Shown: positions 35,793 to 56,284 of the stretch, piece by piece
Position numbering within the stretch: the first letter of the stretch is position 1
How the letters are laid out: each line of letters opens with the position of its first letter
Assembly: GCF_002105155.1 (NCBI RefSeq)
Contig: NW_019028982.1
Coordinates: 456,501 to 520,500, forward strand
Source of the DNA: Lobosporangium transversale
Taxonomy: Eukaryota; Mortierellomycota; Mortierellomycetes; Mortierellales; Mortierellaceae
DNA: 64,000 nt
Direction of reading: 5' to 3'
Made by a program: the position numbers and the translations under genes
The notes under the pieces: generated by a model
What the model was told of the DNA's origin: nothing
The model's database searches: none
Seen by the model: the letters and a program-made list of their open reading frames with translations, nothing else

Positions 35793-35801
35793 AAGTTTCT
35801 C
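35793..35801 (+). repeat. target-site duplication, left copy (AAGTTTCTC)
   Basis: AAGTTTCTC directly precedes the left inverted repeat and is repeated directly after the right inverted repeat at 48284-48292. Confidence 0.9.
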
Positions 35802-36393
35802 TAGGCTCGTACCCATCCCTCTTCACTTTATAAAGGTGACAGGAAATTCCATTTCCTTTTTGAGTCACCTAAAGTGAAGGGGCTGGGAAAAAATCTTCGC
35901 TTATTAGCTGGTAGCTCAAAAAGGAAATAAATAATACACTTGAGGGAATATTCTTCCGTATATGCAAGGGACAGAACTAGTGGCTGTATTTTTTATAAGT
36001 ATTTATACTTATAAAAAATTCATGCACAATAATAATTTTTTTTTTTTTTTTTTTTTTTAATATCGCGTTCCACCTCCAATCCCCTTCACAGTCTGAGTCC
36101 TGAGCTCAAGGTGAATATTCTATTCACAATTGCTGCATGCCATAGTTTTCTAGCAAAAAAAATAAAAAATAAAAAAAGTCTTTGTTTATTTTTGTAACAT
36201 ATTGTGATATTGTTTCATAAACCTGAATGGGCTTGACTTCTTAACCTCACTTAATCGCTTCCCTTCCGCTTCTCTTTCGCGCTTCTCTTTCTCGCTTCCC
36301 TTCCGCTTCTCTTTCTCGCTTCTCGGCTTACCTCTCTCAAACACTTATCTCTTCACTTCCTACACTCCACCCCTCTACAAACAACTTACGATG
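35802..36393 (+). repeat. left terminal inverted repeat (592 bp)
   Basis: It starts TAGGCTCGTACCCATCC and ends at the ATG of CTTACGATG. It contains a terminal foldback (about 35815-35888), a T23 run (about 36036-36058) and a C/T-rich tract with sub-repeats of the type CGCTTCTCTTTC (about 36252-36326), which probably belongs to a promoter or leader. It is the exact inverted counterpart of 47692-48283. Confidence 0.93.
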
Positions 36394-36574
36394 AATCCTA
36401 GCAACACTCCTTCGCTGGTCGACCATAGGAGTTACATTGGCTTGTGCGTTTTCTATACTTACTACCCATATCAGTGTCAAATATCAAATTGTCTATAAAT
36501 CTCACAGTTACCTTCCATATACTTCTTCATCCTTAATCTCTAGTACACCAGAGCAGCTGAGGAATCTGTTCAAA

Positions 36575-38323
36575 ATGTCGAAAGTGCCGACTCAAGATGA
36601 CATTAAAGGATCGGCCGAGCTATTCGGCTGCAATAATGAAATAGCCATCGATAATAAGCCTTTTGATCGAAACAAAGCCATTGAAAAATGCAAGAAGATA
36701 TTCAAGGTCACCCCCAAGACTTTGCAGCTGGATGTTGTCGAATGTATTGGCAGTGGTCAAGACTGCATTCTTATTGCTGGATGTGGTTGGGGTAAAACCC
36801 TTGTCTACACTCTCCCACTTGTAATTTGGAGAGATCGGATCATTATCATCATCTCTCCTCTGAGGGTATTGATACAGGAGCAGCAGCAGAGCCTTCAAAA
36901 GCTGGGGATTAGTAGCGTCGCATTACTCAGTGGAGGGGCTACCACACGAGGAACGATCGGCGACGTGGCCGATGGGAAATATAGGGCTGTTTTCATGACG
37001 CCAGAGATTATCTTCGACAGCCCTATTCTGACGAAACTCTGGTCAAATCCAAAATGGCAAAAGCGGCTACAGGCAGTTGTCATGGATGAGGCTCACTGTG
37101 TTTGCAATTGGGGCGACAGTTTCAGGACTTCCTATGGCCGTATTGCGGAGCTACGCTCAAAGGTCTCCTGTGGTGTAGCTTTCATCGCTGTTTCAGCTAC
37201 CCTTCCACCAATGGTTCTAGAGAAGCTCAGAAGCTTGGTCCAATTCAAACCTGATGTCAAGATTATCAACGTCGGTAACGATCGCCCCAACATCAGGTTG
37301 GAAGTCCGGCATCTTAGCTCTAAGGATAAGTCCAAGCACCTTGATTTTCTCCTCCTTGATCTTAAAAAAACTATCATCTACTTTCAGACCAAGGACGAGA
37401 TTAGATATTGGTATAAGCATTTGAAACAGTTAGCAGAGGGCAAGTTCAAGATCGCTGAATATCACGCCGACTTTTCTGAAGGTTACAAGCAAGAAACTAT
37501 GGAACACTTCAAGCGTGGCGATATCCTCATTTTGCTGGCTACAGAAGCTGCCGGGATGGGGTGTGACATTAGTGATGTCCTTCGTGTTGTGCAGTACAAG
37601 TGCCCATCCGCAATCTCGGCTCTTGTACAGTGTCTTGGTCGTGCAGCTCGCAACCCGCAACTTCAAGGTCAGGGTGTATTATTAGTACCACCACCGTCCG
37701 TTGGTACCAAGTTTCCAGATGAGGACCTCGCCGATTACATTATGACTAAAGGGTGTCGGCGGAAAGTCCTCAATGACATCTTTGACAATAAGCCTCAACC
37801 TAATGAGAACTGTTGCGACATCTGCCGTCCAGTTTCTGAGCCGCTGCAACTTTCTTTCAATGAAATTCGTGTTGACACAGTACCAAAGGTTCGGCGTACG
37901 GCAGAACAGAAGGAAGCTGCCAAAGAGGCTATTAAGAAGTGGAGATTGATGGTTTACAAAAGGGATTACGAGCCAGCTTGCCCATGGTTAAGGCTTTCTT
38001 GCGTGCTAACGGATGCGTTGGTCGATAAATTAGGCGAAAAGTTTGGCAATGTTACGTCGCCCGAATCGGTAACATCAATTACCGGTTGGACCTTTATAAA
38101 CGACGACATTTTAACGGAACTCGCCAATCTCCTTATCAATTTAAATAAGGACATCGATAGTGCGTGCCAGCCTGAAATGCAACCGCAGCTCCAAAAGAAG
38201 GAGTCCCATATTGGCCGGAATGGCCGTGTTCAAAAACCACGGCCTACCGCAAAGCCAAAGATCGCGTTCCATAATATGACCTCTTTTGACTTCTCCAAAC
38301 GTGGAAACCCCAATGGCAGCTAA
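36575..38323 (+). CDS. RecQ-like superfamily 2 DNA helicase of the transposon
   Basis: A single long frame gives 582 residues from the ATG at 36575; the frame is open further upstream, so a longer N-terminus is possible. Helicase motifs in order: I GCGWGKTLVY, II DEAHCV, III SATLPP, IV YFQTKDEI, V ATEAAGMGCDI and VI QCLGRAARN. A RecQ-type zinc-binding element follows (GCRRKVLNDIFDN..., NCCDIC). There is no clear winged-helix or HRDC domain. The last 100 residues are basic. It probably unwinds DNA during transposition or repair of the donor site (inference). The upstream segment 36394-36574 may be a leader with an intron ending CTCTAG at about 36542. An AATAAA lies near 38371. The gene is intact. 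Confidence 0.9.
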   Translation: MSKVPTQDDIKGSAELFGCNNEIAIDNKPFDRNKAIEKCKKIFKVTPKTLQLDVVECIGSGQDCILIAGCGWGKTLVYTLPLVIWRDRIIIIISPLRVLIQEQQQSLQKLGISSVALLSGGATTRGTIGDVADGKYRAVFMTPEIIFDSPILTKLWSNPKWQKRLQAVVMDEAHCVCNWGDSFRTSYGRIAELRSKVSCGVAFIAVSATLPPMVLEKLRSLVQFKPDVKIINVGNDRPNIRLEVRHLSSKDKSKHLDFLLLDLKKTIIYFQTKDEIRYWYKHLKQLAEGKFKIAEYHADFSEGYKQETMEHFKRGDILILLATEAAGMGCDISDVLRVVQYKCPSAISALVQCLGRAARNPQLQGQGVLLVPPPSVGTKFPDEDLADYIMTKGCRRKVLNDIFDNKPQPNENCCDICRPVSEPLQLSFNEIRVDTVPKVRRTAEQKEAAKEAIKKWRLMVYKRDYEPACPWLRLSCVLTDALVDKLGEKFGNVTSPESVTSITGWTFINDDILTELANLLINLNKDIDSACQPEMQPQLQKKESHIGRNGRVQKPRPTAKPKIAFHNMTSFDFSKRGNPNGS

Positions 38324-39487
38324 CATAGTGTCATCTGTCCCAATTGATTGTTGAAACATTTTAGTTTGTAATAAAGCGTACTAAATCTCAGAAATCTATC
38401 AGGAAAAAGCTTAAAAAAAAAAAATTAAAAAATTAAAAAGTTAAAAAATTAAGCATAGCATTCGCGATCCTTCTTTGAGTCTAATCTCAAACCGTTTCTG
38501 TGCCTGGAATGCGTGCCTCATTCCTCAATAAAAGGGAAAGTTGTTGCATATTTCAATATGCAATAATAATGGTCCGACTAAAAAACTGATCGATAAAAAA
38601 TAAAAATAGCGGTAGAAACCAGTGGCAATAATGCGTCACACTAAGACGCGACAAATCGCTGACATGCGAAACCATGTTGTATTATTACAGATAGATATGT
38701 AGCTATCTGATACAAGTCTCTCTACCAGAAATGAATAAAATAATCCATGGGTGTGGTGTGTGGACCCACGTCTTATTCTCACTTACTTTTTGACAGTCTA
38801 CTATCTATCCTAAATATTTTTCAGCGACAACGCACTGGATTGTGGAGTAAATGATGACCTGTGGCCAATTTTCACTTCACTCTTTTTGTGCTTCAAGGGA
38901 AGAGTCCGTTTAACATCCACCCAGTTGCAAGAAAATTTGTCAATAGTCTGGCTAGTGACAGCCAAGAAACAACATTGTTTTTTGATCTTTTGATGTCGGA
39001 TCTTCCTACTAAAACTGAAGCAGAGTTCAGCAAGCGTCGGATTGTTCCCCCACAAATAGGGAAGATGAGTTGGGCTTAGACTGTCGTGATACAAATAGGT
39101 TTATTGCAAGAGGAAGTGAAGTAGTTTACAGCCAAAACAACTCATGCAGGACAAAAGAAAGTTGGCTCCGAACCGCTTGTTTGGCAAACTCCAAAACAAG
39201 CTCTGATATTAAGTAACCGTTATCTTTAATAAAACGCCTGTATCCCATGAAAGGGGCAAACATGAGAGAAGTCCATGTCCGCAAAACACAGATTTTTTTT
39301 ATTAATAAAAAAAAAAAGAAAACTAACGAGTTAGTCGAACTCTCCTAAAATCATCCATGCTTGGCCTCAGGTGCGGTCATTTTTTTTTAGTTCGCTTAAT
39401 ATGGCGCTTTGCATTCTCTTCATCTCAGCTGTGCAGATCACAAGTAGACATGGCAAAGCACATTAGGCAAAAATAACATTAAAAAAA
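38324..39487. other. transposon interior with a possible coding relic
   Basis: At about 38817-39079 on the plus strand two overlapping frames each read like protein. One contains DNALDCGVNDDLWPIF, the other SDSQETTLFFDLLMSDL, and a frame change near 38900 would join them. This may be a broken element gene or an unspliced exon. The rest is AT-rich, with an A11 run near 38413-38423. Confidence 0.3.
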
Positions 39488-40393
39488 TTAAAAAAATAAA
39501 AAATAAAAAGTACAGATATCAGAAAGCTTGTTCTCTGTTGTTCTCAACTGAATCGAATTGATATCAACTAACTTACAGATACCCTCTTCTAGTGCTCTTA
39601 GACGAGATGCAGTTTCACTACCACACTTGCTGGGGGTTTCAGAACGCCCTGGTGGAGCCACGCGGGGTGCCAAGTCCATTCCATCTAATATACGCTTCTG
39701 TTTTCGCGACAGGAGCTCATCCGAACAGGGGGTGACAGAGCGACTTGCCCAGGGTTGGGCTGTGAACTGTAGCTCTTCTGAGGTGAGATCTGGCGAGACA
39801 GCTTCCGTGATGTGATCTAACTGAGGAGAAAATGGGTCTGGAGGAGAAGAGGATGTCTTGCTAGGATCTGGGGGAGGAGAGGATATCTCACTGGGATCTG
39901 GTAGAACAGAGGATGCCTCGCTGGAATACGTTGGATTAAGGAGTTTTGTGGATATGACGATCGGGTTCGAGTCGAGATAATGGTGGTTCCGGCTCTGGTG
40001 GTCAGGCAGTAACGCAAACGAGGCGTTTTTTGGACCTTTTTTTTTCTTCGTCAACATTTCTTCAATCATCGTATGGCACGCATGGCATTTGTGGACATGC
40101 CGAGAAAACCCTGGTTGCCCAATTTCATCACATCCTTCCCCGGGCGGTTTGAACATGCCATTGTCTGTCAGTGTAGCAATGTAGACGATGCACAGCTTGT
40201 TGCCAAAAAGTGGTTTGATGTAAATGTTGGCGGTTGCAGAGGAAGAATGGCTTTCTTTACCATAGTAAGGAGGAGGGGCTGCTCCATGCGTGATAGCCGT
40301 GATAGCCGTGATAGCCTTGAGTTTTTTTTGTTTAGCTTTAGGCATCCCAAAACTTGATGTGGATGAGAAGGTGAGAGAGTGAATTTCTTTCAT
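39488..40393 (-). CDS. hypothetical transposon protein with zinc-knuckle-like motif
   Basis: This minus-strand frame of up to 301 residues has no recognised family. It has a basic start (MPKAKQKKLK). A candidate metal-binding motif, GCDEIGQPGFSRHVHKCHAC, has the H-x3-C spacing seen in the other small genes of this element. A Pro/Ser-rich section of three 10-residue repeats (PDPSEISSPP type, from a 30-bp DNA repeat) follows. The start could be the first Met or the one at PKAKQ. A consensus donor GTAAGTTAG within the frame near 39575 suggests that the C-terminus may be spliced differently. Inward neighbours are the helicase and a divergent small gene. Confidence 0.45.
   Translation of the reverse strand: MKEIHSLTFSSTSSFGMPKAKQKKLKAITAITAITHGAAPPPYYGKESHSSSATANIYIKPLFGNKLCIVYIATLTDNGMFKPPGEGCDEIGQPGFSRHVHKCHACHTMIEEMLTKKKKGPKNASFALLPDHQSRNHHYLDSNPIVISTKLLNPTYSSEASSVLPDPSEISSPPPDPSKTSSSPPDPFSPQLDHITEAVSPDLTSEELQFTAQPWASRSVTPCSDELLSRKQKRILDGMDLAPRVAPPGRSETPSKCGSETASRLRALEEGICKLVDINSIQLRTTENKLSDICTFYFLFF
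39836..39925 (-). repeat. 30-bp tandem repeat in coding sequence, about 3 copies
   Basis: Three imperfect 30-bp units (GAGGATGTCTTGCTAGGATC-type on the plus strand) encode the Pro/Asp/Ser repeats of the hypothetical protein. Confidence 0.7.
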
Positions 40394-40805
40394 GTTGGCC
40401 TTTTTTAAATTTTAAATTTTAATTTCTAGACTCTTTCAAATACAAATGGTTTACTTTACAAAATTCTTATAGTTGAAAGGATTAGCCCTCTGGTTAAAAA
40501 AAGTTGCGTGCGTATACCCAACTTTTTTACACCACATGTGTCCAGTAGTTTTGAGAAAAGCGGTACGTACCCCAACACTCTTACACCACTTTAGTCCGTC
40601 GGTTGATTTTTTTGCACGTCCACTAATATCTTTATGTGAACTTTTTTTTTATATTATTCTCTTGACCAGTTAACTTGGCCAGCAAAAATCGAAACTTTGT
40701 CATCGGCTCCAGAAGAGAAATATGGGGCCCAGGCTAGAAACAGAAAAAAAAATTTTTTTTCTTAGAAACCATTTCGCATGTTGTAACAGTATATAGCCTT
40801 AAGCC

Positions 40806-40813
40806 TATAAAAA
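40806..40813 (+). promoter_or_regulatory. TATA box of the 40.9-kb transposon gene
   Basis: TATAAAAA lies 56 bases before the ATG at 40869, a suitable distance for a core promoter with a short leader. Upstream, two imperfect copies of about 45 bp (near 40506-40545 and 40561-40606, both with ACCC(C)AACnnTnTTACACCAC) may be regulatory. Confidence 0.55.
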
Positions 40814-40868
40814 GGCTTGTTTTAATATTTATAATAAAATCACCTTTTGTCTTCACTACCTATTACAC

Positions 40869-41617
40869 ATGTCTTCCACTAACAACATCGTTTCTTCTTC
40901 CTCTGCAGTTAGCACTAGCAGGAAACGCACTCGTGACGAAGTAGAGAGCACTCCCAACGTTAACGAGGTGTCATCGAGTACTCAATCCGATCCAAACGAG
41001 TACCGTGGCAGGCTAGTGCCTTTCAAACCAGTGTCCACGGAAAACCTGTTAAGTGTATATAGTAAACTTTTCCTGGATCCGTACCAGTGTTCAATCCGCG
41101 GGCGGTCTGACCCTTTGCCAGCCGAGTATCAGGACGGGGATGAAGTCTATCCTCGAGAATGGTTGGTACTCGAGGGTCAAGAGGCAAGGACACCCAAGGG
41201 CCATGTGCTAAAGCGTGAAGGCTTCACGCTATTCCGTCTGCATGAGCCATCGTTGTTCAAGCAGTTGGAGAAGCTCAAGCTTCGGCTGGTCTCGGAGGAG
41301 GATTGGGAGACCGCCAAAAAAGCAAGGGCTACTCTGCAACAACAACATAGAGTGGCTGAGGCGCCTGTGGTTGCAAGCACCACAGAGTCAATGCAGCTAG
41401 GGGTCTGCGCAAGGTTTTCACTGAGCTGACCGCTGTTGGCGTGGAAGCGCCTCATAGTAAACGCTTGGAGGAAAGGGCAGCTCTATGGATAGAGCTATAT
41501 AAGACGGTTGTGCCAGCCAAGCATCCTGTCGATCAAGAGGAGACTGCTAGCGAGCCAAACAGTTCTCCTCGTCATAGTAAGAGAGCTCGAACATCCGTAG
41601 AGCCATCTACAAAATAG
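40869..41617 (+). pseudogene. hypothetical transposon gene, frameshifted near 41400
   Basis: The first frame (40869-41429) gives 186 residues: a Ser-rich basic start with SRKRTRDEV, then EYRGRLVPFKPVSTENLL, YPREWLVLEGQEARTPKGHV and the charged helical EKLKLRLVSEEDWETAKKA. At about 41400 it runs into a short out-of-frame tail. The previous frame continues with KVFTELTAVGVEA, LEERAALWIELYKTVV and a basic end SKRARTSVEPSTK, stopping at 41617. No plausible intron resolves the shift, so this is either a broken gene or an assembly indel. No family is recognised. It has its own TATA box and an AATAAA near 41638. Confidence 0.5.
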
Positions 41618-41769
41618 TATTTTTTTTCATCGACATTAATAAAAGTGCAATTTGACAGAGTTAGAGGTCACACTCAGGCACCAGAGTTTTGAAGCATAAA
41701 AAAATATATTTGTGGTATCGATCGACTGAAACAACTCACTACTTGAATTGAATCAGGTTTGGCACATGA

Positions 41770-42164
41770 ATTTTTCCACCTTACGCTCAGTGGAAGAAGA
41801 GGCTTTCAAAAGATCGGCCTTGCTTTCAGTGTCAATGGCTCAACTCTGAAGATAAAATAAAGCTAAGCTACAAGTATTTAAGTAAATGCAACCAGTGTAA
41901 AGTCTGTATGTATAAATGGTTAATGAGAGATGCCTGTCCCTTTAATATTACAGACAATGTTAATAGAGCACAAGGTATCCTTTCCATAACCTAAACCCCA
42001 CTACTCCTGTGGACAAGATAAAGGAGAGTCCAGCTGGCGTAAGCAATATAAGAGGTCCAACGAAAACCCAGCTACCCGAGTATGTCCGCAATATGGACCA
42101 TCCGGCGCAGTATACCGTGTATGGTATTGCTAAGCAACATGGCGACCTCGAAATCGAGTTATAA
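41770..42164 (+). pseudogene. cysteine-rich transposon coding relic
   Basis: Two overlapping frames without a good start codon read like protein. The first (41770-41994) has a C-x2-C pair (PCFQCQW) and CNQCKVC followed by a further Cys (DACPFN), a likely zinc-binding fold. The second (41967-42164) gives KTQLPEYVRNMDHPAQYTVY and ends LEIEL. A frame change in the overlap would join them. It may be the rest of a larger element gene, perhaps of the preceding one. Unrecognised family. Confidence 0.35.
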
Positions 42165-42570
42165 CCAATTTCCGCTGAGAAATAAAATCCTTAATTATTA
42201 TTTATTATTTTTTTATATACTATAAAATGTAATTATTTTATGACAATGGGGGACTCATGTAGTGCGTGTAAAGGTGCTGAAGGCTGAAGGTTTGAGCCTA
42301 GTGACGAATGCAAGCTTGGGAAAGGATCACTCACAAACTCGTCTATTGCTGTAAGCTTTAATGACTAGAAAAAAGAGAGGACTTCAGTAGAGTTGAATTA
42401 GGTCGTTGGACATGTAATCGGAAAATGAGGAAAAGAGGTGCATTGGGTGAGAACGTTAGGTGTCTGCTGGAAACATGACTGAAGGTATAAAGCGCATTAA
42501 CTGAAGCGTTAGCCGAGATGTTAAAAAAAGAGTGTACCATATCAAAAAAAAAAAAAAAAAAAAAAAAAAA

Positions 42571-42655
42571 GGTGCAAAAAAAGGTGTAAAAAAAGGTGTA
42601 AAAAAAGGCGTAAAAAAAGGCGTAGGTGTAAAAAAAGGTGTAAAAAAAAGGTGCA
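42571..42655 (+). repeat. 12-bp minisatellite GGTGTAAAAAAA
   Basis: About seven copies of a 12-bp unit (GGTGTAAAAAAA with GGCG and GGTGC variants) lie between an A27 run and a second A-run at 42701-42731. The Lys-Gly-Val open frames read through it are low-complexity artefacts. Confidence 0.85.
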
Positions 42656-42697
42656 ACAAAAAAAGGGAAGCTGAGGGTGTTAGAAGCACATCGTTTT

Positions 42698-42732
<35 letters not shown>

Positions 42733-42931
42733 AATAATGTGTAAACAACACGCATTCGCAAGATCATACACGCATTCAAACATGGATTGACGAGTGTCGT
42801 ATAAACTGGGGGCACCTTCATCTGACCTATTGGACCCATAGCTAAGTTTAACGCCAAGGTTTTTTGTTATCTTTGTATGAGTGGGCTTTCCTCGGCCCTG
42901 TCTCTTCGCAACCATCGGAGTGAGTCGCACG

Positions 42932-44316
42932 ATGGATCCCGCGGACGAATTCTACCCTCAAGTGTGAATGCTACGACCACTCTGTCCAGACCCACAGGTC
43001 ACTGAAGGACCATCTCCTTAAGTGTCCAATGGTCAGCAAACTCGTGTTCCCGCGGCCGTGTTCGTGGTGCAAGGAGCCGATGAAGATGACAGAGAAAGCG
43101 AAGAAACAAAACTCCTTGAAAGACGTTGCGGCTCTTGCGAGCCACTCCCTCAAATGCGAATCATGGCCGGTTAGCGTGTCTCAGGAGGACTGGCGTTTAT
43201 TTGAGATGGAGCTTATCGACAACGTGAAGCATGTTGCTAGTGCTGAATTTGCCAAGAATATGTTTATGTCAATATCGATAAAGTTAATGGACGGCGAGAA
43301 GCTGTTTGGTTTTGCGCTTGCTCCCCGAGCCTATATACTTAAGAAAGAAGGGAAGTCGCCTTGGTGAGCCCTTTGAACCATCAACAAGAAAGGACACTGG
43401 AGGACGCGGACTTGGAGATGGCTCTGAAGCCTCAGCCTTACGGTCGGCTGGTGAAGCTGGAGGAGTACGAGCTGGCGAAGGATAACGACTAGTTTTGGCA
43501 CATGCCGTTCTTAGGTAACAGCGAGCAGGTGGCAAGGAAGTTGCAGAGCTGTCTGATCCAGTCTGGTAACGACATTATCATGTGTCTTAAGGTGGAGGTG
43601 TACAGCCGTCTTCAGTCCGAGGACCCCCATGCCGATGCATTCGTGGCTTTTCCAGGTAGCAAGGTGGTCAAGGTCGCCAGTCAGTTGTTCAATCGTACCA
43701 GCCAGCTGATGATTGGAACAACCGCATGGAGTGCTCTAGTGACGATGGGCGTTGTGCTGACGAGTGGCAAAGTTATTGTGGGGCCACATAACATCGTTTT
43801 CAATCCTCACAGTGAGTCGCACATATGGCTCAAGAAGGTAGTGAGGAATACCTGTACAACAATGTGGAGCGTCAGACGCGGTCCAACTTTGACGAAGAGG
43901 CCACGTACGGCAAGCACGCTGCCGTACATCCTCAGTTTAAATCGCCCTTCACCAGTCCAGTGCTGTTGGCGACTTTGTGGCATTTCAAGCATCAGCAGAA
44001 GGGATGGTCAGGCCTCAAGCTTGCTGCCTATATTTTCTACGAACTCTACAGTGACAAGGGCGTTGTGCTGAAGAAGCAGGTGGAGGATTACTTGGCCCTG
44101 ATTCCGCATGCCAAGCAAGGTAATGGCGGGATTTACAAAAATCTGGAGCAATTGGTCAAAGTCATGAAGGCGGAAGAGACAAGGCCTGTCTCGGCGGAGG
44201 TTGATAAAAAGCTGAGCGGTCTTGCAGACAAAATACAAACAGAACTGACTCGTATCAACACCGGTACTATCACAGTCAACGTTGAGGCGCAGCTAAAGAG
44301 AATACTACAACCGTGA
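42932..44316 (+). pseudogene. decayed zinc-knuckle transposon gene
   Basis: The reading is spread over several frames. MDPADEFYPQ (42932) shifts at about 42963 to ECYDHSVQTHRSLKDHLLKC. That runs on through PCSWCKEPMK and ALASHSLKCESW to a stop at 43367. About 43370 onward a different frame gives QQERTLEDADLEMALKPQPY, an in-frame TAG at 43490, then GNSEQVARKLQSCLIQSGND. At about 43820 another shift leads to the last 160 residues (SPVLLATLWHFKHQQKGWSG and on), ending at 44316. Two C-x(1-2)-C...H-x3-C zinc-knuckle-like motifs are visible. At least three frame breaks and one nonsense codon indicate a dead gene, unless the assembly is at fault. Family unknown. Confidence 0.5.
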
Positions 44317-44898
44317 AAGACGTATGAGTAATTTTATCATCATCAACGCGGAGTCCTTTACATTTTTTTTCATATCAGATTATGTCTCCCTCCCGCCATG
44401 CTTCTATACTATCTTTCTGCGATTTTTATTAAATGACGACAAAGACGATATTTATACAATAAATAAGACTAAATGGGTGAAGATAAAAGAACCATTATGA
44501 AAAAGAAGGAACCTAGTCTACACTGAATTATATACAATAGAATGGTATTACAATAAATTACAATGTGATGAACATGATTAGGACAATAGATTGCAATATG
44601 ATACAGACAATAATAAATTACAAAATGATACAGTAGAAGTGGTACTTGAGATGATACAGGCTGGGACGACAAAAGTGCGAAGGTTCTCACAAGGCTTATG
44701 CTGATGAGGATGATATTGGAGCAAAGAATAAGAGCAGAGAAAGGACCAGAAATGAGAACATAATTGGAGCTGGAGACAGGGCAGGGGACGAGGTATAAAT
44801 GCGGGAGGATTGATCCTTGCTCCTGTACAGAGTAAGCTTCTATGTGAAGCTACTGTCTGGATTCAAAGAAAATGGACCTCCATGACGGGGACATTGCA
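44317..44898. other. transposon interior, 3' region of DUF6589 gene
   Basis: It contains loose AT-rich repeats of the type ACAATAAATTACAA and AATATGATACAG (44520-44640). It should hold the 3' ends of the converging 42.9-kb gene and DUF6589 gene. No open frame of interest. Confidence 0.4.
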
Positions 44899-47479
44899 CT
44901 ATTCCCTAAATGCCTCATCTAGGTCAGAGAAGTCGTATTCATCATCTGCTATCACATCTAAATCTGGGCTATCGTATCCATCTGTCTGCATGTTTTCAGG
45001 GAAACAGGAGGTAATATACGACTCCACCTGTTGATCTTCTATCGCAAGGCTTGCGAGAACAGTCGCCATGTCTTCGGTACTATTTCGTTCGGAAATGTGC
45101 TTAACAATGTTTTGGAAGCGTCCTGCTACCAGCTTTTCAAAGCCTTCGCAATACAAATCTGTGGTAATCGGAATATGGCTGCTGCCCAGACAGGAACCTC
45201 TGCCAAGAATATTATAGTCACGAAGATGAGCTACAATTCTTATGATATCTTCATCGACAGAAACTGGTGAGTGTCGAGTACTGTTGGGAATCATGTTGTA
45301 CTGTGACTCGAGCACCGACTTGAGCTTCGAAAACAGACGAATGTTGGTAGATATTGAATTGGCCAATGTCTCCCAGGACATATTGCTTCCCTTCGCTGCA
45401 TGAATGACTTTTGTCAGCAGGTTATTGTGCTCTTGGTACAAATCCGCAGGGATCCTCCCATTCTCCTTGCCCTTCGTATTTATCAGCAAGGAGGACAAAA
45501 TAGCCTTCCTCCGTTGTGCAGACCAGCCGTAGTGGATCCCATATGTCAAACGCAAGAGCTCGCCTGCATAGTTTTTCATTCCTCCAGCTTGAAACATGAC
45601 GGTTATCGTTCCCAGCACATCTTGGATGCGTCCGATGTCCCCAGCCTTTATGGCTGCACCCAATTCGATATAAACAAGAGCATCCCTGATAAACAAAGCC
45701 GCGTTTGCATTCGCACTGCCGCTTTCCTCGGCGATCTGATGTGCGTTGCGCAACCACTTTTGTATGACAGCGTCGACCCCTTCGCAAACTTTGCCTAAAA
45801 TATTGTCCGACTTGCCATAGTTCTCTAGCCTGCACTCATAAGCCTGCATGTCGCTGATATTTAGCCCAAACTCAACTTCCCATAGCCGTCTTACCATTGC
45901 ATCGAAAGTATGCCTTATCAGTTCGTCTGCGGCGTGAAAGTTGGATGTATCACGGCCAAGTCGCTTTCGCCCCAGCATGGATATAATAAAACCCAGAGAC
46001 CCTGGTGATGAAAAGGACCCATAATGAGTACGAAGGATTGTACCACAGAGAACCATTTGGAGGTGAAAGAGCTGTATCACAGGAATCGCCCATTGCATTC
46101 GATCGAAGCTTGTTCTATCTTCTCTGCGTAGCTCTTGCAAGGATGCTATTCTGGATATGGTAAGCTGATCCCCCGCAACTATAACTTTTGTATAGTCGGT
46201 GAACCACTCTTCAGGCAGCTGAAGCGTGTCTCTCATTATTGTCTCAAGGATCTCAATGTTGCCTGATATAGTTGATTGATCGATCTTCAACGCAGGCAAC
46301 GGGTATGTTTTTGTCTCCTTTACTTCAAGGGGCTCTATTGAAGGGGCATCCATCGAGCAGTCGTAGGTGGTGAAATGCCGCTGAAGAACGTCGATCAAAT
46401 GGAACCGAGTGACATCTCTACGGCATTATCAGAACGATTAGCTAAAAAAAAAAAAAAAAAAAAAAAGGTAGACTGATTATGCACTTCAGTCGTGTTTTTG
46501 TGTCTGTGCCTCACCTTGAGTGCAATTGCCTTGGAATAAGGGTGCAAATGGAGATGGGAAGTACATCTTGATCTTGATCTGGCCCAATATCCTCGCCGAG
46601 CACGATGGTCGCGGTGGTCCCATTATCGAAGGAGTCTAAGTTATTGCTGCGCTGGTCATATTTCCGATTGGCCATATTAATGTTATCATACAGCAAGTAC
46701 CATGGGCGCTTCCTAACTTGGGAACGAACCTCCTGAAGAGAATTCCTTGTTAACGATCTGAGGGCTGTGCAGATCGTCATATGTGACACCGATAGACCAC
46801 TCACAGCGAGCAAATTTATCACACGCTTTGGACATCCCGAGGCATGCAGATGAAGTCCCATCATCATTTGCAAGTAGTTCGACTTCTGGGAACAGAGTTT
46901 CACCAACATGCTAACGATAGTGACACGAATTGCTGGTGCTTTTTCAATGGAGTAAGGGTTGACCGATGTCAAATTGGAGATGATTTTGAAGAGCAGGGGT
47001 GCTGATTCCAACTTCTTATTAATTAAATTTAATGAAAATTCCTGGACCACCTTGGGGGACAAATTCTTGGCTGGAAGCCTCAGGTCATCGGTCTTGGTGA
47101 GCTCCTCGAGTTCACGTTTTGCGCCATCAACGACAATGTCTGCTGCAGCCCGACCGAGATCGTCGTATGCCTTATTATGAGCCTTTTCGGATTCCAATTG
47201 CGATTTCCACGTCTCGACTATGGAAGCAGGACCGCTATTAGCATAAAATCTCCTGACGCTTCCTTGGACGACCCTATGGCGCGATTCAAATACATCTGAT
47301 AGGAATTGACGTAACGATATTTTTTTTTCCTCTACCAGCACTTTAAAAATATCGACCAAGTAATCATCATTGGAAGGATAGATGGAGGGAGTTTCGCCGA
47401 TAATTTCCAGCTCCTCCTGCTGTTCCGATGTAGGCGTTGGGGTTTCTCCTTCTTCCAATGCTTTCCACATCTGGCGCAT
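44899..47479 (-). CDS. DUF6589 protein, candidate transposase of the element
   Basis: Two exons, 47479-46515 and 46417-44899 on the minus strand, join in frame (phase 2) to 827 residues. The intron has GT..AG ends and an internal T-tract. Matches to the DUF6589 family are the middle region GLSVSHMTICTALRSLTRNS and RPWYLLYDNINMANR with KYDQRSNN, then YPLPALKIDQSTISGNIEIL, VIVAGDQLTISRIASLQELR, DRTSFDRMQWAIPVIQLFHL and QMVLCGTILRTHYGS. The Asp of LLYDN (about residue 265) and of AGDQLT (about 405) look like the first two acids of an RNase H-like DDE site. Glu in NFHAADELI is a possible third. That is my inference. The tail is acidic. The frame is open upstream to 47548, where a short 5' intron is likely. 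It is intact. Confidence 0.75.
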
Positions 47480-47691
47480 TGTGCTAGAGATGAGGGGCAT
47501 GAAGAGATATGTGGAGGATAGACGTGAGATTTGAGGACACATTGACATTTGACACTAACATTGGTTCCGTTTTAGCAATAGTATACATACATGTTTCTCA
47601 GCGGCTCAGGAACCGATGGGGTAGCCTGGTTAGGTGTGCGATAGCTCTTAGGAAGCTTGATAGGTTTGAAATTACGAAATTTGATAGAATC

Positions 47692-48283
47692 CATCGTAAG
47701 TTGTTTGTAGAGGGGTGGAGTGTAGGAAGTGAAGAGATAAGTGTTTGAGAGAGGTAAGCCGAGAAGCGAGAAAGAGAAGCGGAAGGGAAGCGAGAAAGAG
47801 AAGCGCGAAAGAGAAGCGGAAGGGAAGCGATTAAGTGAGGTTAAGAAGTCAAGCCCATTCAGGTTTATGAAACAATATCACAATATGTTACAAAAATAAA
47901 CAAAGACTTTTTTTATTTTTTATTTTTTTTGCTAGAAAACTATGGCATGCAGCAATTGTGAATAGAATATTCACCTTGAGCTCAGGACTCAGACTGTGAA
48001 GGGGATTGGAGGTGGAACGCGATATTAAAAAAAAAAAAAAAAAAAAAAATTATTATTGTGCATGAATTTTTTATAAGTATAAATACTTATAAAAAATACA
48101 GCCACTAGTTCTGTCCCTTGCATATACGGAAGAATATTCCCTCAAGTGTATTATTTATTTCCTTTTTGAGCTACCAGCTAATAAGCGAAGATTTTTTCCC
48201 AGCCCCTTCACTTTAGGTGACTCAAAAAGGAAATGGAATTTCCTGTCACCTTTATAAAGTGAAGAGGGATGGGTACGAGCCTA
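47692..48283 (-). repeat. right terminal inverted repeat (592 bp)
   Basis: This is the inverted copy of 35802-36393, with the same length and no mismatch found by eye. Its inner end is the ATG at 47694-47692 (minus strand), the same position at which the left repeat ends. The outer end is GGGTACGAGCCTA. Confidence 0.93.
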
Positions 48284-48292
48284 AAGTTTCTC
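48284..48292 (+). repeat. target-site duplication, right copy (AAGTTTCTC)
   Basis: This is a direct copy of 35793-35801 immediately outside the right inverted repeat. Confidence 0.9.
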
Positions 48293-56170: not shown

Positions 56171-56179
56171 CCATCAGGT
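56171..56179 (+). repeat. target-site duplication of miniature element, left copy (CCATCAGGT)
   Basis: CCATCAGGT flanks the miniature element on the left; the second copy is at 56276-56284. Confidence 0.88.
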
Positions 56180-56275
56180 TAGGCTCGTACCCAACCCTCT
56201 TCACTTTATAAAGGTGACAGGAAATTCCATTTCCTTTTTGAGTCACCTAAAGTGAAGGGGCTGGGAACGAGCCTA
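56180..56275. mobile_element. 96-bp miniature inverted-repeat element related to the 12.5-kb transposon
   Basis: It begins TAGGCTCGTACCCAACCC and ends GGGAACGAGCCTA. The interior is nearly identical to the outermost ~88 bp of the large element's inverted repeat, including the foldback around TCACTTTATAAAGGTGAC / GTCACCTAAAGTGA. It has its own 9-bp target duplication, so it was inserted as a mobile unit. It codes for nothing and presumably depends on the larger element's proteins. Confidence 0.9.
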
Positions 56276-56284
56276 CCATCAGGT
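56276..56284 (+). repeat. target-site duplication of miniature element, right copy (CCATCAGGT)
   Basis: This is a direct copy of 56171-56179 just outside the right end of the miniature element. Confidence 0.88.

Follow-up and report, generated by a model that had tools for sequence, protein, structure and literature searches.

AcademH, the helicase-encoding lineage of the Academ transposons, was reportedly defined by Kojima in 2020. A "RecQ Helicase in Academ" was listed in a 2013 paper citing Kapitonov (PMC3627910), and passages of later papers give target site duplications of 9 or 10 bp for AcademH and of 3 or 4 bp for AcademX, which carries a nuclease (2023, PMC10045372), and place AcademH at low copy number in Basidiomycota, Ascomycota and Mucoromycota (2024, PMC10799480); AcademH is cited in PMC12210899, and excerpts elsewhere report putative non-autonomous Academ insertions in Marasmius oreades (PMC8290104) and Academ from bivalves (PMC10294476). 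KolobokH likewise joins a DDE (Asp-Asp-Glu) transposase to a RecQ helicase in fungi, and the relevant passages of PMC9587614 assign to Kolobok TTAA duplications of 4 bp and a C/DxxH signature between the second D and the last E, a signature that also marks Mutator (Mutator-like elements, MULEs) and hAT. Here we describe a 12.5-kb element lying within 64,000 nucleotides of Lobosporangium transversale DNA (contig NW_019028982.1, positions 456,501 to 520,500; hereafter the window, part of contig C62 in our handles). Judged against published statements on AcademH, it is very likely a DNA transposon of the AcademH type, uninterrupted and probably autonomous, whose DDE transposase would be a protein of DUF6589 (PF20231), a family of unknown function in Pfam.

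The element begins with TAGGCTCG and ends with CGAGCCTA, and lies between two copies of the 9-bp duplication AAGTTTCTC (Table 1). The original prediction had judged its 592-bp inverted repeats free of mismatch by eye, and the two arms, strictly delimited, indeed align without a single substitution or indel across 592 bp; a relaxed call extends them to 606 nt at 99% identity (35799-36404 and 47681-48286). Splice sites of both genes were picked by GT-AG borders and frame, such that the exon models derive from DNA sequence, not RNA, and intron removal leaves each reading frame unbroken. The helicase (ORF, open reading frame, 36437-38323) matches the Pfam domains DEAD (E 1.7e-23) and Helicase_C (E 7.4e-19), with a RecQ_Zn_bind match (E 9e-4, 20.4 bits) under the Pfam cut-off of 25; its closest relatives in the PDB are bacterial RecQ (E 2.4e-31) and WRN, in keeping with the intact RecQ-type enzyme first proposed. 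The second protein, previously read as 827 residues, is intact and matches PF20231 (E 5.8e-95 for the last-exon ORF), although its length in our model is 863 residues and the shorter figure fits an internal Met start.

Table 1. Features of the element and its surroundings in window coordinates.
Feature	Position	Strand	Basis
Left target site duplication, AAGTTTCTC	35793..35801	.	Sequence comparison of flanks
Left terminal inverted repeat, 592 bp, starts TAGGCTCG, final bases are the helicase ATG	35802..36393	+	0 differences from right arm
RecQ-like helicase gene, 610 aa, exons 36391-36443 and 36544-38323	36391..38323	+	Splice model, Pfam, PDB relatives
Family-specific middle, short ORFs and embedded dispersed repeat	38400..44898	.	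ORFs, Pfam, genome matches
DUF6589 transposase gene (predicted), 863 aa, exons 47694-47591, 47483-46515 and 46417-44899	44899..47694	-	Pfam, splice model
Right terminal inverted repeat, 592 bp, closes with CGAGCCTA, inner boundary formed by the DUF6589 ATG	47692..48283	-	Arm comparison
Right target site duplication, AAGTTTCTC	48284..48292	.	Sequence comparison of flanks
Miniature element, 96 bp (56180-56275), TAGGCTCG/CGAGCCTA termini as in the 12.5-kb element, own 9-bp duplication CCATCAGGT	56171..56284	.	

A predicted DDE fold, together with a D, D and E conserved among DUF6589 sequences (candidate codons at 46687-46685, 46170-46168 and 45432-45430), suggests that the DUF6589 protein is likely the DDE transposase of the element. 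Searched by sequence against the PDB, the DUF6589 alignment gave no match up to E 1, and no single column carries a C/DxxH motif in more than 2 of the 23 sequences. The 12 ORFs of at least 100 aa that were scanned contain neither a MULE domain (PF10551) nor a nuclease domain by Pfam. A profile search aimed at distant (animal) members of DUF6589 listed 33 proteins, every named one fungal; a Pfam scan of five longer or distant relatives found no DUF6589-helicase fusion, and a search of viral contigs for relatives yielded 18 pattern-matching stretches with 0 confirmed.

The association of the two genes recurs across the genome (42.7 Mb in 127 contigs). The 53 DUF6589 matches merge into 37 loci and the helicase matches scoring 100 bits or more into 22; such a helicase lies within 9 kb of 14 of the 37 DUF6589 loci (12 convergent, 2 tandem), against a chance expectation of 0.34. 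Two of the 14 paired loci use one common helicase, and since some pairs represent copies within a single family, the 14 are not 14 independent events. The proposal that many orphan DUF6589 and RecQ-like genes may belong to such elements is supported, in this genome, by the good part of them found in convergent pairs. The remaining 23 of 37 DUF6589 loci have no such helicase neighbor, and incomplete or disrupted copies make up many of the 53 DUF6589 matches. Among the best 120 of 383 helicase relatives, Mortierellales come first, then Agaricomycetes and then bacterial proteins, and of the fungal names noted (33 for DUF6589, 35 for the helicase) 11 are common to both. One DUF6589 protein (P0005) and one protein named RecQ (P0073) stem from JGI contigs of 8,222 bp, which may be one and the same.

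That further copies of a mobile DNA transposon would bear different 9-bp duplications was borne out by searching the genome. We scored duplications in the 23 copies among the fetched loci that retain both terminal 8-mers, TAGGCTCG and CGAGCCTA, leaving aside 6 of 19 small loci (L044, L046, L053, L054, L057 and L058) and 9 of 17 larger regions in which one or both exact 8-mers are missing. Exact 9-bp duplications flank 12 copies (two in the window, C37, C40b, C46, C73 and six small copies), while three have one mismatch, one has an exact 7-bp duplication and seven have none. The second large copy, C37:684776-695672, is 99% identical over window positions 38052-48283 and lacks most of the helicase gene. 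An element of another subfamily (C40:1683796-1689378, 5,583 bp) has the helicase and DUF6589 as its only long open frames, and the C46 element is inserted within a copy of the repeat family of the window element, with the duplication GCCTAGGGG. The miniature element in the window is hairpin-like, with about 15 similar ones among the fetched small loci, four of them with a damaged end.

The sought empty sites within the same genome were obtained in part. When the flanks of the C73 miniature copy are joined they match 44 places, eight of which run across the junction for 150 or more of the 174 bases; these are related empty sites. For the window insertion, whose left flank is a dispersed repeat and whose right flank matches itself alone, the genome offered no empty site, as 0 of the 31 matches listed span the junction. 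A candidate for the C37 insertion (C73:363071, 93%, one of 41 matches) extends only 20 bases past the junction and was not counted. The duplication GATTAATCC is common to two copies and occurs on one side of a third (C37:684776-695672, L042 and L047), and C37 and L042 each border a copy of the same dispersed repeat; the recurrence may reflect target preference or shared history. Two regions tried as large family members were set aside: C73:597435-608780 (L015/L016) is really a miniature element with a nested MULE (FAR1 match just under cut-off, adjoined by a Ulp1-type peptidase ORF), and C84:60.4-71.3 kb, apparently an element with helicase-bearing arms of more than 3 kb, has MULE-type ends and a broken right end. 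The window element itself probably moved recently, and is probably autonomous.

Set beside AcademH, the family shows exact 9-bp duplications in 12 of 23 copies, an element-borne RecQ-like (superfamily 2) helicase evidenced by Pfam, PDB relatives and gene pairing, a DDE transposase predicted from fold and conserved acidic residues, and a host that we take to belong to the Mucoromycota, a group from which AcademH is reported; in this comparison with published descriptions no difference from AcademH emerged. If Academ membership holds, AcademX falls in the same superfamily, differing in its 3 or 4 bp duplications and its nuclease. The element had been proposed as an undescribed class; since it fits the published AcademH passages (PMC3627910, PMC10045372, PMC10799480), we regard the class as already known and the DUF6589 assignment and repeat design as useful additions. 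In an AcademH-type mechanism, the DUF6589 transposase would bring both TAGGCTCG ends together, cleave the DNA and integrate the element with a 9-bp stagger, while the helicase might open or remodel the ends or assist repair of the donor gap.

Because Academ was compared by description and not by sequence, we retain as unlikely a superfamily of its own, standing alongside AcademH, which acquired a RecQ-like helicase independently. Our literature search found no paper dealing with DUF6589 (the four matches to PF20231, IPR046496 and DUF6589 look unrelated by title), which does not imply absence elsewhere; duplication length, helicase type and host range nevertheless all fit what has been stated of AcademH. 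The same search found no paper joining Lobosporangium and Academ, again without implying absence elsewhere.

A resemblance to Mutator-like elements had also been raised, and one could suppose that the repeat family is mobilized by a MULE transposase encoded elsewhere in the genome, with the helicase and DUF6589 as cargo. MuDR of maize too has two convergent genes with promoters in its terminal repeats, and makes 9-bp duplications; moreover the genome holds 21 MULE matches, the best of them lying between two ends of the element's repeat family at C73. That MULE, however, is nested: it interrupts a miniature element of ~380 bp, its two ends (GGACTAAGG... and GAATAAAGG...) differ from those of the family, and it is flanked by a separate duplication, AAGATTTTT. 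The 12 scanned ORFs have no MULE domain and the DUF6589 sequences no C/DxxH column, the second gene of the window element is a helicase and the element itself encodes a predicted DDE protein, leaving only architecture and duplication length in common with MuDR and making a MULE-driven origin very hard to credit. The missing C/DxxH column and the 9-bp duplications also separate the family from hAT (Hermes), which makes 8-bp duplications. Scarcely more probable is membership of KolobokH: according to PMC9587614, Kolobok-1_CCri of a red alga has its RecQ helicase on the complementary strand, as does the window element, yet the duplications here are 9 bp and not the TTAA 4-bp ones of Kolobok, and the Kolobok C/DxxH signature stands in no column in more than 2 of the 23 sequences.

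In the window the identical terminal arms finish at the helicase ATG on one side and the DUF6589 ATG on the other. In the C40/C46 subfamily one arm runs into the first ATG of the DUF6589 frame and the other stops 6 bases short of the first ATG of the helicase frame. The arms of window and C40b are alike only in their first 17 bases and in short A/T- or C/T-rich stretches. Since the arms of two such dissimilar subfamilies end at, or within 6 bases of, start codons, we infer from position that each arm comprises the promoter and 5' leader of one gene, analogous to the promoters within the terminal repeats of MuDR.

Within a copy, the arms differ at 0 positions in the window element (592), C40a (550), C40b (527) and C46 (506 bp); those of C37 have no substitution as far as the ATG and differ there by a gap of one base, with 2 substitutions and 2 indels when sequence beyond the ATG is included. 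Between copies of one subfamily, arms differ by 1 to 3 substitutions and 2 to 5 indels. Both arms of one copy bear the same changes, so that a change in one arm seems to be transferred to the other; and because arms match completely or almost so inside each copy but vary from copy to copy, conversion between arms or template switching would keep them alike, presumably accompanying transposition or repair. A helicase role in this conversion is a guess. Still broader, and in our estimation improbable, is the idea that DUF6589-helicase elements form their own superfamily, with terminal repeats that are duplicated promoters ending at start codons and kept identical because the transposon-borne RecQ-like helicase enables repair to copy one arm from the other; if true, it would explain an element with 6-kb arms and one helicase in each. 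A structure of this form lies at C103:15928-33367 (L028-L030; 17.4 kb, TAGGCTCG...CGAGCCTA ends), where 5,994-bp arms at 100% identity contain a helicase match per arm, DUF6589 occurs in pieces only and a duplication is absent. At C40:770569-783874 (L020/L021), an element of the C40 subfamily sits centrally in a palindrome. Its flanks are exact mirror images over the 3,322 bases adjoining the element, which makes a normal 9-bp duplication impossible; the palindrome, like that at C103, may be an assembly artefact.

The family-specific middle of the window element contains short ORFs (39488-40393 on the minus strand; 40869-41429, 43029-43367, 43502-44071 and 43825-44316 on the plus strand), none with a Pfam match above cut-off. 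It is shared with the C37 copy at 97-99% and, in pieces, with the copy at C84:857-869 kb. The dispersed repeat embedded at ~38591-38823 has at least 25 further matches among the 70 listed genome matches. A possible third gene (43029-44316, with a frame change near 43825) occurs, among the matches listed, only in the C37 and C84 copies of the element family.

The window element is a good uninterrupted example of the AcademH type. It points to a likely function for DUF6589 as the DDE transposase of helicase-encoding transposons, and DUF6589 genes and RecQ-like genes named "sgs1" in Mortierellales, perhaps also in mushrooms, may accordingly be transposon genes. With its near-alike copies, miniature derivatives and related empty sites, this genome offers a setting in which to study the role of a transposon-borne helicase, and it suits the study of how terminal repeats remain identical.
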